A DNA stretch of 64,000 nucleotides from Clostridiales bacterium (GTDB lineage: Bacteria; Bacillota; Clostridia; Oscillospirales; Acutalibacteraceae): positions 1 to 64,000 of the forward strand of contig JAAWQC010000009.1 in assembly GCA_022800315.1 (NCBI GenBank). The letters run 5' to 3'. How positions within the stretch are numbered: position 1 is the first letter of the stretch; each line of letters opens with the position of its first letter. The notes under the pieces were generated by a model. That model saw nothing but the letters and a program-made list of their open reading frames with translations, ran no database searches and was not told the DNA's origin. Below, piece by piece: positions 44,992-50,659 of this stretch. The position numbers and the translations under genes were made by a program.

Positions 44992-45020
44992 TGGACGGCA
45001 AAGCAAAGATCGGGTATACT
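44992..45020 (+). promoter_or_regulatory. promoter of the leader peptide/MFS unit
   Basis: TGGACG (44992-44997), a 17-base spacer and TATACT (45015-45020) precede the leader peptide by about 60 bases. The -35 box is only fair. Confidence 0.55.
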
Positions 45021-45078: not shown

Positions 45079-45117
45079 ATGAAATTATGCCTTGCTCACG
45101 CTCCATGCAAAGTCTGA
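45079..45117 (+). CDS. putative 12-residue regulatory leader peptide
   Basis: ATG 45079 opens a 13-codon frame (MKLCLAHAPCKV, stop TGA) with GGGAG eight bases upstream, a well-formed translation start. The second half of the frame runs into the first arm of a hairpin (45101-45138). Its position, directly before the MFS exporter gene and followed by a hairpin that masks the exporter's ribosome-binding site, is what is seen in drug-inducible attenuators such as those of erm and mef genes. Function is inferred from layout only. Confidence 0.55.
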   Translation: MKLCLAHAPCKV

Positions 45118-45208
45118 TCCGGGCGGGTCTGCATGGAGCCAATCCTTTTCATACGCCCGAACAGGCTTTGCTCTCTGTTTCTGATAAACAAAGAGTAGAG
45201 GAGCAAAG
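45101..45208 (+). promoter_or_regulatory. two-hairpin translational attenuator before the MFS exporter
   Basis: Hairpin one pairs CTCCATGCA (45101-45109) with TGCATGGAG (45130-45138) plus an inner GATCC/GGGTC stem. Hairpin two pairs CTTTGCTC (45166-45173) with GAGCAAAG (45201-45208) and, inside it, CTCT/AGAG and GTTT/AAAC; its right arm covers most of the Shine-Dalgarno GAGGAG (45198-45203). An alternative pairing, TGGAGCC (45134-45140) with GGCTTTG (45164-45170), would break both hairpins and free that site. Confidence 0.55.
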
Positions 45209-45210
45209 TC

Positions 45211-46530
45211 GTGATGAATACCTTTCGAACCACCATCGGAGAGCTGCGTCAGTTTCTGATTCTGTGGTCCACCCAATCCTTATCGTCCCTGGGCAGCTCC
45301 ATGACCAATTTTGCTCTGGTGGTCTGGTCTTATCAGGCGAAGGGCTCGGCCCTGACCACCGCGCTGCTGTCGGTCTGTTCCTACGCGCCCTATGTGCTGA
45401 TGAGCATCTTCGCCGGAGCGTTCAGCGACCGATGGCCTAAAAAAGTGACCATGCTGGCAAGCGATACCTTTGCCGCCGCCTGTACGGTGGGGGTGTTGCT
45501 GCTGATGACCACGGGACGGCTGGAAATTTGGCATCTGTATGTGCTCAACGCCCTGAACGGGCTGATGAATACCATCCAGCAGCCGGCGGCTGACGTCACC
45601 ATCAGCCTGCTGACGCCCCCGCGGCATTATCAGAAGGTCAGCGGCCTGCGTTCCCTTTCCAACTCCCTCACCGGCATTCTGACGCCGGTACTGGCCACCG
45701 CCCTGCTGGCCTTCGCCGGTATGGAGGCGGTGATCGTTTTCGACTTGGCGACCTTCGGGGCCGCCTTCGTATCGCTGTTGTTTTTTATCAAAATACCGCA
45801 GGTGCAGCAAACCGATAAAGGGGAGGAATCGGTCTGGCAGGCGGCCAGGGCGGGCCTGCGCTTTCTCCGCGGTCATCGGGGTATCCTGCACTTGATTTTG
45901 TTTCTGGCAGCTATCAACCTGACCGCGTCCATGTTCAACGCAGCGCTGCCCGCTCTGCTGATCACCGGCGGGCCGGGTGGGGAAACGGCGCTGGGAGCGG
46001 TCAACGCCGCCACGGGCGTGGCCATGCTGATCGGCAGCCTGGCCGCTTCCTTTTTGCCCGAGCCCAAAAGCCGGGGCCGGGTGATCTGCAACACCCTGTT
46101 GCTGTCCATGAGCACCGAGAATTTTTTTCTGGCCTTTGGTAAATCCCTCCCGGTGTGGTGCCTGGGGGCTGTGCTGGGCTGGCTGTGCATTCCGGTGATG
46201 AACGCCAATATGGACGTCCTGTTCCGCCGGAACATCCCGGTGCCGATACAGGGACGTGTCTATTCGGTGAGGAATACCCTTCAGTTTTTCACCATCCCCA
46301 TCGGGTACTCACTGGGGGGGCTGCTGGTGGACCGGGTGCTGGGGCCGTTTATGGTTGCCCAGCCGCCGGATAGCTGGTGGACACGCCTGTTTGGCTCCGG
46401 CAAGGGAGCCGGGGCTGCTTTGCTGCTTTTTTTCCTGGGCGTGCTGGGGGTGGTCACCTGCCTGATCTTTCGCCGGGATCCCGCCATCTGGGACCTGGAA
46501 AAGGACAGGGAGCCGCTGCCCGACGAATAG
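45211..46530 (+). CDS. MFS efflux transporter (MefA/MFS_3 type)
   Basis: A 439-residue major facilitator with twelve predicted helices. The start LRQFLILWSTQSLSSLGSSMTNFALVVWSYQ and the loop FAGAFSDRWPKKVTMLASD are typical of the MefA/enterobactin-exporter branch, whose members export macrolides or other amphiphilic compounds by proton antiport. GTG 45211 and ATG 45214 are adjacent start choices, seven and ten bases after GAGGAG. The upstream leader peptide and hairpins suggest induction by a ribosome-targeting drug. The substrate is inference from family and control region. Confidence 0.87.
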   Translation: MMNTFRTTIGELRQFLILWSTQSLSSLGSSMTNFALVVWSYQAKGSALTTALLSVCSYAPYVLMSIFAGAFSDRWPKKVTMLASDTFAAACTVGVLLLMTTGRLEIWHLYVLNALNGLMNTIQQPAADVTISLLTPPRHYQKVSGLRSLSNSLTGILTPVLATALLAFAGMEAVIVFDLATFGAAFVSLLFFIKIPQVQQTDKGEESVWQAARAGLRFLRGHRGILHLILFLAAINLTASMFNAALPALLITGGPGGETALGAVNAATGVAMLIGSLAASFLPEPKSRGRVICNTLLLSMSTENFFLAFGKSLPVWCLGAVLGWLCIPVMNANMDVLFRRNIPVPIQGRVYSVRNTLQFFTIPIGYSLGGLLVDRVLGPFMVAQPPDSWWTRLFGSGKGAGAALLLFFLGVLGVVTCLIFRRDPAIWDLEKDREPLPDE

Positions 46531-47964: not shown

Positions 47965-49527
47965 ATGCCCTCTTTAAAAGGATTTTTCCGTTCCTCCGGC
48001 GACCGGCAGAAGGCGGTATCCGCGCCGCCCCCGCCGCCGCATCCGGTGTCACCGGTGCTCATGGACAACCTGGTTTATCTCCATGCCCAGTTCGGCGTCA
48101 GCTCCGACCTGACCGTGCGGGAAATGGAGGCCGGCGGCTGTAAAATCGCCATCGTAACCCTGGAAGGGATGGTAGACCGCCACACCATCGCCGACGCGGT
48201 TCTGCTGCCCCTGTCGAAGGTTCCGGATATGGACGGGGCGGAAGCGCTGATGTCCTACGTCCGCGACAAGGTGCTGGCCATGGTGGACCTGATGCAGGTG
48301 GTCACCATGGATGAGGTCATCAACCTGATCTCTTCCGGCTTCGCCGCGGTCATGGCCGACGGCGCCGCCTATGTGCTGCTGGGCGGTTTCCAAAATTTTA
48401 TGATCCGCGGGGTGGGGGAGCCTTCCTCTGAAATGACCACACGCGGCTCACGTGAGGGCTTTACCGAAGCGATCCGGGTGAATATCAGCATGATCCGCCG
48501 CCGGATGAAGACTCCCGACCTGACCTTTGAGATGATGAGCGCGGGCAAAACCAGCAATACGGCGGTCTGTCTGTGCTATATGAGGGGGCGGGTGTCTGAA
48601 CAGCTGCTGAACGACGTGCGCGCCCGCATCCAGAAACTGCCTCTGGACGTGGTGCTGGAATCGGGATATATCCAGCCCTTCCTCGAAAACCGGCGGCTGT
48701 CCCTGTTTTCCAGTGTGGGAACCACCGAACGCCCCGATACCCTGTGCGGCAAGGTGGCCGAAGGACGCATCGGTGTGCTGGTGGACGGCACCCCCTTTGT
48801 TTTGATTACGCCCACCCTGTTCGTGGAACACTTTCAGTCGATGGATGACTACGCCATCCATCCCTATTACGCCAGTTTCCTGCGCATCATCAAATACGTT
48901 TCCTTCTTTGTAGGGATGCTGCTGCCGGGGCTTTATGTGGCGGTGGGAACCTTCCATCCCGAGATGCTTCCCTTTACCCTGATGCTGTCCTATCTCAAAT
49001 CCGACCTGTCCACCCCGTTCCCCCTAGTGATGGAGGCCCTGATTATCCACTTTCTTTTTGAGATCATGCGGGAGGCGGGCCTGAGGTTTCCCAAGGCGGT
49101 GGGCCACGCCGTCAGCATCGTGGGAGCGCTGGTCATCGGCGAATCGGCGGTGCGGGCGGGTCTCATTGGCGCGCCCATGGTCATCATCGTCGCCCTGACC
49201 GCCATCAGCTCCTTCGTCATCCCCTCCCTGTACGGCCCGGTGACCCTGCTGCGCTTCGGCTTCATCATCCTGGGCGGGACGCTGGGTATTTACGGCATTA
49301 TGATCGGTCTGACCCTGCTATTGTGCAGCGTGTGTGCTGTGCATATCCAGTCCATCCCCTTTACCGCCCCGGTGACCCCCTTCAGCCTCAAAGCCATGCG
49401 GGACGTGCTGATCCGGGCGGATTGGCGGGAACTTTGGAAGCATCAGTTCCTGGTGCAGAACGTGGTGGGCTCCCATCTTAAGGAAAACGGAACCGAGCCC
49501 GACACGACCGACCCCGGCGAGGAATAA
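47965..49527 (+). CDS. spore germination receptor A subunit (GerA/GerKA type)
   Basis: A 520-residue membrane protein. An N-terminal hydrophilic domain (about 1-290) precedes four to five membrane segments and a short C-terminal cytoplasmic tail. The motifs TRGSREGFTEAIRVNISMIRRRMKTPDL and YIQPFLENRRLSLFSSVGTTERPD are hallmarks of GerA-family A subunits, which with B and C subunits detect amino acids or sugars in the inner spore membrane and start germination. The family's usual length is close to 500. It is first in a three-gene operon; the germinant is unknown. AAAGGAG lies 12 bases upstream. Confidence 0.93.
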   Translation: MPSLKGFFRSSGDRQKAVSAPPPPPHPVSPVLMDNLVYLHAQFGVSSDLTVREMEAGGCKIAIVTLEGMVDRHTIADAVLLPLSKVPDMDGAEALMSYVRDKVLAMVDLMQVVTMDEVINLISSGFAAVMADGAAYVLLGGFQNFMIRGVGEPSSEMTTRGSREGFTEAIRVNISMIRRRMKTPDLTFEMMSAGKTSNTAVCLCYMRGRVSEQLLNDVRARIQKLPLDVVLESGYIQPFLENRRLSLFSSVGTTERPDTLCGKVAEGRIGVLVDGTPFVLITPTLFVEHFQSMDDYAIHPYYASFLRIIKYVSFFVGMLLPGLYVAVGTFHPEMLPFTLMLSYLKSDLSTPFPLVMEALIIHFLFEIMREAGLRFPKAVGHAVSIVGALVIGESAVRAGLIGAPMVIIVALTAISSFVIPSLYGPVTLLRFGFIILGGTLGIYGIMIGLTLLLCSVCAVHIQSIPFTAPVTPFSLKAMRDVLIRADWRELWKHQFLVQNVVGSHLKENGTEPDTTDPGEE

Positions 49528-49555
49528 GACCGGACCCGTCCGGAAGGAAAGAGCG

Positions 49556-50659
49556 GTGGTTCCCCTGAAAAAGAATACTCAGATCAGCGTGTCTCAATTG
49601 GTGTGCCTGCTGCTGGCCAGCCGGCTGACCACGGCCATGACCGCCTCCCCTGCGGGGGGGCCGGCGGGATTCGGTTCCAGTATGCTGGTGTCGGTGGTGC
49701 TGCAAATCCCTCTGCTGCTGATACTGCTGCTGCCCACCTGGTGGTTCAGCCGCCGTACCAACCGGTCGGGGACGATCGATTATGCCTATGTGCTGTTCGG
49801 CCCGAAGGGGGGCGGAGCGGTGGCGGCCCTGTATGGTCTGCTCTGCCTCGTGATCGTGAACGCCGACCTGCTGCGTTTTCAGACCTTCGTGTCGGTGGCT
49901 CTGTCCCCTGGTATGTCCCGCATAGCCCTGTGCGGCACGCTGGTGGTGGGGGTGTTCTTCGCCGCCTCCTGCGGGCTGCAGGCCGTCGCCCGCGCCGCCG
50001 GCGTGGCGGTGGTGGTGGTGATCGCCGCTATGGTGTTCACCTTGTTTTCCCTCCTGCCCGAGATGCGGGGCGTCCACTTCCTGTCACCCCTGTACGACGG
50101 GGTGTATCCGGTGGTGGAGGGCGCGCTGTACGAGCTGCCCCGCTCCATCGAGGTGGCGGTGGTGGGGATGCTGCTGCCCTACGTCCGCGGCAGCTCCTCA
50201 AAGGGCTACGCGGTATGGACGACGGTGCTGGCCGGCGTGCTGGTGCTGATGCAGGCGACTATTACCGGCGTGCTGGGGGATTTCGCCGCACAGGTGCGTT
50301 TTCCCTATTATACGGCCGTCACCGCCGCCGACGTGGGGATCATCCAGCGGATGGATCTGATCGCGGTGGCCGTGTGGCTGGTGGTCCTGTTCGTCAAGAT
50401 GGCCTTTTACTCTATGCTGTATATGAGCTGCGCCCAGCGGATATTCGGGAAAAACCGCAAACCCCTGTACGCTGTCGCGGGGGGCGGGACGGTTTTCGTG
50501 ACCGGTTTGTCCTTTGCCGGTTTGGCGGCCCAGAGTGAGCAGGAGGCGTCGGTCCCCGTCTATCTGATCATCGCGGGACTGTTTGCGGTGGCGCTGCCCC
50601 TGGTACTGGTGCTGGCGGATATGGTGCGGGAACGGCGGGCGCGCCGGGCACGGGCGTGA
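49556..50659 (+). CDS. spore germination receptor B subunit (GerAB/GerKB type)
   Basis: A 367-residue membrane protein of the amino-acid/polyamine/cation transporter superfamily with about ten helices. It starts with the typical ISVSQLVCLLLASRL segment of GerB subunits, which are thought to hold the germinant-binding pocket. Start GTG 49556 follows AAGGA by eight bases. It lies 28 bases after the A-subunit gene and 43 before the C-subunit gene, and all three should be expressed in the forespore. Confidence 0.9.
   Translation: MVPLKKNTQISVSQLVCLLLASRLTTAMTASPAGGPAGFGSSMLVSVVLQIPLLLILLLPTWWFSRRTNRSGTIDYAYVLFGPKGGGAVAALYGLLCLVIVNADLLRFQTFVSVALSPGMSRIALCGTLVVGVFFAASCGLQAVARAAGVAVVVVIAAMVFTLFSLLPEMRGVHFLSPLYDGVYPVVEGALYELPRSIEVAVVGMLLPYVRGSSSKGYAVWTTVLAGVLVLMQATITGVLGDFAAQVRFPYYTAVTAADVGIIQRMDLIAVAVWLVVLFVKMAFYSMLYMSCAQRIFGKNRKPLYAVAGGGTVFVTGLSFAGLAAQSEQEASVPVYLIIAGLFAVALPLVLVLADMVRERRARRARA

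Follow-up and report, generated by a model that had tools for sequence, protein, structure and literature searches.

In the 64,000-nucleotide window analyzed here (Clostridiales bacterium contig JAAWQC010000009.1, forward strand), a short leader open reading frame (MKLCLAHAPCKV and its stop codon, 45079 to 45117) is encoded on the forward strand between an upstream ftsH gene and a downstream gene for an MFS exporter (45211 to 46530, forward strand; start codon GTG at 45211 or ATG at 45214). The leader is preceded by a Shine-Dalgarno (SD) sequence (GGGAG) and ends 93 nt before the exporter gene, whose own SD (GAGGAG) is at 45198 to 45203. A weak promoter-like site (TGGACG-17-TATACT) lies at 44992 to 45020, although it is supported only by a consensus scan. 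The exporter is a TIGR00900/Mef-like protein that scores below all named NCBIfam cutoffs, and well below those of the Mef macrolide efflux proteins (MefA, 86 bits against 675; MefC, 100 bits against 870). Farther downstream (47965 to 50659) are spore-germination genes, with a GerXA-like protein (47965 to 49527, below the family cutoff) followed by a membrane protein that we read as its likely partner.

The RNA forms two hairpins, H1 (45100 to 45109 with 45130 to 45139; 10 bp) and H2 (45164 to 45173 with 45201 to 45210, plus an inner stem), the second of which includes the 3' part of the exporter SD. The predicted structure has a minimum free energy of −55 kcal/mol (z = −3.3), and none of 200 shuffled sequences is as stable. 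An earlier note proposed from the sequence alone that this is a leader-peptide attenuator of the erm/mef type, with a possibly new drug-sensing leader. The layout, the SD masking, and the new-leader reading are supported by comparison, although the competing pairing that it proposed is not, and the element is not tied to this exporter.

Conservation of the leader peptide and RNA arms

The leader and stems do not occur by chance. Of 67 loci with orthologous MFS genes above 36% identity, collected in three searches, 62 carry the leader, with the consensus M-x-L-C-I-[V/A]-x-A-P-C-K-V; these are in Clostridia, Paenibacillus, and one Spirochaetaceae metagenome-assembled genome. Of the other five, one is cut by the contig end, and four MFS homologues lack a detectable element. 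An SD-like 4-mer is present upstream of the leader in 55 of 57 elements. The leaders vary in N-terminal length (MKLCIVSAPCKV, MILPLCIRFAPCKV, MQNISLPLCIASAPCRA), but the codons from L-C-I to the RNA arm are kept. Codons 3 to 6 (45085 to 45096), which encode L-C-L-A here and L-C-I-[V/A] in the family, constitute a predicted stall motif. Codon 3 uses all six Leu codons and codon 4 both Cys codons plus Ala codons; single-base differences at codons 3 and 4 are synonymous in 562 of 633 and 377 of 388 sequence pairs, against expected fractions of 0.34 and 0.19, respectively. We note that sequence pairs are not independent and that these values are descriptive, and that codon 5 is almost always ATT when it encodes Ile and thus does not by itself separate RNA from peptide constraint.

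Codons 8 to 12 and the stop codon, in contrast, are RNA arms with compensatory changes. The H1 5' arm (45100 to 45109; codons 8 to 10 and the first base of codon 11) covaries with its 3' arm (45130 to 45139), as does segment B (45162 to 45171) with segment C (45203 to 45210), which includes the 3' end of the exporter SD; 10 pairs have two-sided changes, a result reached in 0 of 500 shuffles. The end of the leader, segment A (45107 to 45117; codon 10 to the stop), competes with C for B. A:B is paired in 94.7% of cells and its covariation score is reached by 0 of 500 shuffles; in a wider set including other gene classes, 6 of 10 pairs change on both sides (0 of 500 shuffles). In three loci (L030, L032, and L051) A, B, and C have all changed together (A GCAAGGAA, B TACCTTGC, and C GCAAGGG, GCAGGGTA, or GCAAGGTA), turning the peptide end into CKE. 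A further stem, S2, formed by 45120 to 45125 (CGGGCG) and 45154 to 45159 (CGCCCG), extends A:B (0 of 2,000 permutations). The competing pairing proposed in the earlier note, between 45134 to 45140 and 45164 to 45170, shows no covariation above shuffles: 232 of 500 reach its score, and two of its pairs fail in 28 and 32 of 45 sequences.

To ask how ribosome position influences the exporter start, we used ViennaRNA to fold the RNA left visible by a ribosome at each leader codon, with the first visible base 16 nt after the first P-site base. The unpaired probability of the GGAG core proved a poor measure, because B:C pairs only its last G, and was replaced by the opening energy of the start region. 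This energy is lowest with the P site at codon 4 or 5 in 54 of 57 elements, with a mean of 4.8 kcal/mol at codon 5, compared to 10.6 kcal/mol in free RNA and about 12 to 13 kcal/mol at codons 7 to 10. With other assumed footprints (half of the elements) the optimum moves between codons 4 and 6, although folding omits pseudoknots and kinetics. A:B often forms in free RNA, yet the SD stays closed; our reading is that the GCTCC of arm 1 pairs with the SD. There are also minimal forms at three loci (L102, L104, and L120), in which the H1 3' arm is itself the exporter SD and A, B, and C are absent. Their leaders are MINCIAYAPCR, MINCSVYAPCR, and MILCIAEAPFSQK, and hiding the RNA covered by a ribosome at codon 5 frees that SD.

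Occurrence upstream of other genes

Two covariance models find the element in 40 of 391 genomes of the class and 11 of 398 of the phylum, and the wider model finds it in 74 of 147 genomes of one clostridial family (several copies per genome), 4 of 20 of another family, and 46 of 250 of the class that holds a Paenibacillus-like genome (G1011). A single copy was detected in the genome containing the window. E-values are rough and weak hits include chance; hits without a leader ORF or with low scores (L110-L113, L118, L121, L122, L124, L160, L161, and L190) are treated as chance or unclear. Among 69 first genes scanned, 35 are of the CD3324 family, 16 code for Mef-like MFS proteins, 5 are FusB-type, 3 Cfr, 3 CatA, 3 ceramidase-like, and 1 ABC-F. 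Second genes include those for ABC-F proteins, Vat/CatB-type acyltransferases, FusB-type proteins, GNAT acetyltransferases, and SpoU methylases. Some scores are below NCBIfam cutoffs (CatA, 212 bits against 270; Vat, 235 to 247 against 300), and these are family-level names only; moreover, the loci were chosen from hits and the counts are not frequencies.

The CD3324-family proteins are small (about 88 aa; NF040785), and 10 members weakly match the Mor transcription-activator family. They have no known role in resistance, but are candidate antibiotic-inducible regulators of unknown function. The 214- to 221-aa genes directly behind the element in Bacilli loci L170, L175, L178, L181, and L187 appear to be the FusB-type EF-G-binding proteins counted above, and similar proteins follow CD3324 elsewhere. 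The element also precedes ceramidase-like proteins and an esterase (L129:291-1505, L130:291-1505, L154:261-1502, and L131:1687-2469), which have no obvious link to the ribosome, and at L123 a minimal leader (MKLCIIYASYKL...) lies upstream of a MATE family reading frame, although the link is unclear. The two mobile genes examined, cfr(C) of a C. difficile plasmid and cfr of a staphylococcal plasmid, do not carry the element.

In members preceding CD3324 followed by ABC-F, the arm is read in another frame, giving SSMQRL instead of APCKV, yet codons 3 to 6 are LCIV, LTIV, LANV, or LANA; this argues that the N-terminal block is selected as peptide. The motif is not universal, however. Cfr and several CD3324 leaders use other sequences (MFNRNIKVTHNRLHAKP..., MIRILDFLNEKLHAKS...) and two catA leaders have MKRGLD, such that motifs may be tuned to different drugs.

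A candidate drug-responsive translational attenuator

These observations are best explained, with reasonable though not complete confidence, by a leader-peptide translational attenuator. In this model, the ribosome finishes the leader in the absence of drug, B pairs with C, and the exporter SD is closed, as it also is in ribosome-free RNA. A ribosome-binding antibiotic that halts the leader ribosome with its P site at about codon 5 (codons 4 to 6 are possible) covers the H1 5' arm but leaves A free; A then pairs with B, extended by S2, and C and the SD are released for exporter translation. The conservation, covariation, and geometry rest on comparison and computation, whereas the drug stall, its codon, and induction of the exporter are inferred without experimental support.

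The most likely inducers act at the peptidyl-transferase center or tunnel entrance, with the phenicol/PhLOPSA type first and the macrolide type second, and we favor peptidyl-transferase drugs because of the gene set. Chloramphenicol and linezolid stall best with Ala, and less well with Ser or Thr, at the penultimate position (PMC8987054). With residue 5 in the P site this position is residue 4, which is A, C, S, or T in 46 of 53 distinct MFS leaders, but it is mostly Cys, which is not on the published list. It is possible, though less likely, that the same switch senses a macrolide. The exporter is Mef-like, albeit far below cutoff, and Leu/Ile at position 3 is reported as critical for macrolide sensing by MsrDL (PMC10314930). 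However, Cfr, CatA, and Vat-type enzymes probably do not act on 14-membered macrolides, the Leu is at variable distance from the Met, and codon 4 is restricted to small residues.

It is unlikely that this is an RNA-only element with the peptide as a by-product. Codons 8 to 12 and the stop are fixed by RNA pairing, and variants such as CKE, ALCRV, and AHPCRV follow compensatory changes, but codons 3 and 4 vary synonymously and the L-x-I-V block survives a change of arm frame. Amino acid starvation, with the ribosome waiting at the Cys4 or Ile5 codon, is very doubtful: Cys dominates at codon 4 and ribosome position rather than drug drives the switch, but there is a single Cys codon, replaced by Ala, Ser, or Thr in many members, and the downstream genes are resistance rather than biosynthesis genes. 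Transcription attenuation, with B:C as terminator and A:B as antiterminator, is equally improbable, as although CplR and VmlR leaders combine transcriptional and translational attenuation (PMC10201436), B:C contains the SD and is followed by the start codon rather than a U run, and no terminator-like site was found there.

The element shares with ermC/ErmCL a short leader ORF, two hairpins, a masked SD, a competing pairing, and a ribosome stall as the proposed trigger, but the peptide and arms differ, the antisequestering strand is the end of the leader ORF itself rather than the 3' arm of the first hairpin, and no erm gene was found behind it. In cat-86-type chloramphenicol attenuators an early stall in a short leader likewise seems to open a hairpin masking the SD, a one-hairpin layout shared by the minimal forms, whereas most members use the A/B/C relay and the leader sequences differ. 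The CplR/VmlR/VgaL/LsaA attenuators also control ribosome-protection genes in Clostridia and Bacilli with SD masking, but their uORFs are MR[I/M], MIN, MK[L/Q], or MAGN, probably stalled right after initiation, and cplR has an intrinsic terminator (PMC10201436); here there is a 12-codon leader with arms and no terminator-like site between leader and gene. The MefAL/MsrDL leaders similarly precede a Mef-like pump or ABC-F gene with Leu/Ile near the start, although MYLIFM stalls at its stop codon and acts through a terminator (PMC10314930), and there are no shared RNA arms. In the multidrug ToiL uORF of E. coli topAI a stalled ribosome also unmasks an SD, but the sequence is unrelated and a stall anywhere suffices (PMC12121999), whereas here geometry favors codons 4 to 6. 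There is no Rfam match, and we found no description of the element in the open-access literature searched, where full-text searches for the peptide and RNA strings gave only unrelated papers; as most subscription journals are not covered, its novelty is provisional.

It is somewhat more likely than not that this is one undescribed cis-RNA family of Clostridia and Bacilli, with a shared stall motif, L-[C/A/T/S]-I-[V/A], and a shared A/B/C relay, which wires unrelated ribosome-protection genes (Mef-like MFS, CatA, Cfr, Vat-type, ABC-F, and FusB-type) and a Mor-like regulator (CD3324 family) into one antibiotic response, using a stall context not on the published phenicol or macrolide lists (Cys at the penultimate position). 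Regulatory leaders for antibiotic resistance are usually studied gene by gene. A single widespread element recognizable by one covariance model would predict inducible resistance in many gut and soil Firmicutes, mark uncharacterized genes (CD3324 and others) as part of the response, and provide a direct test of a new drug-dependent stalling context. Conserved uORF sequences have been suggested to point to as-yet-uncharacterized patterns of sequence-specific antibiotic stalling (PMC10201436), and this element is a concrete candidate.
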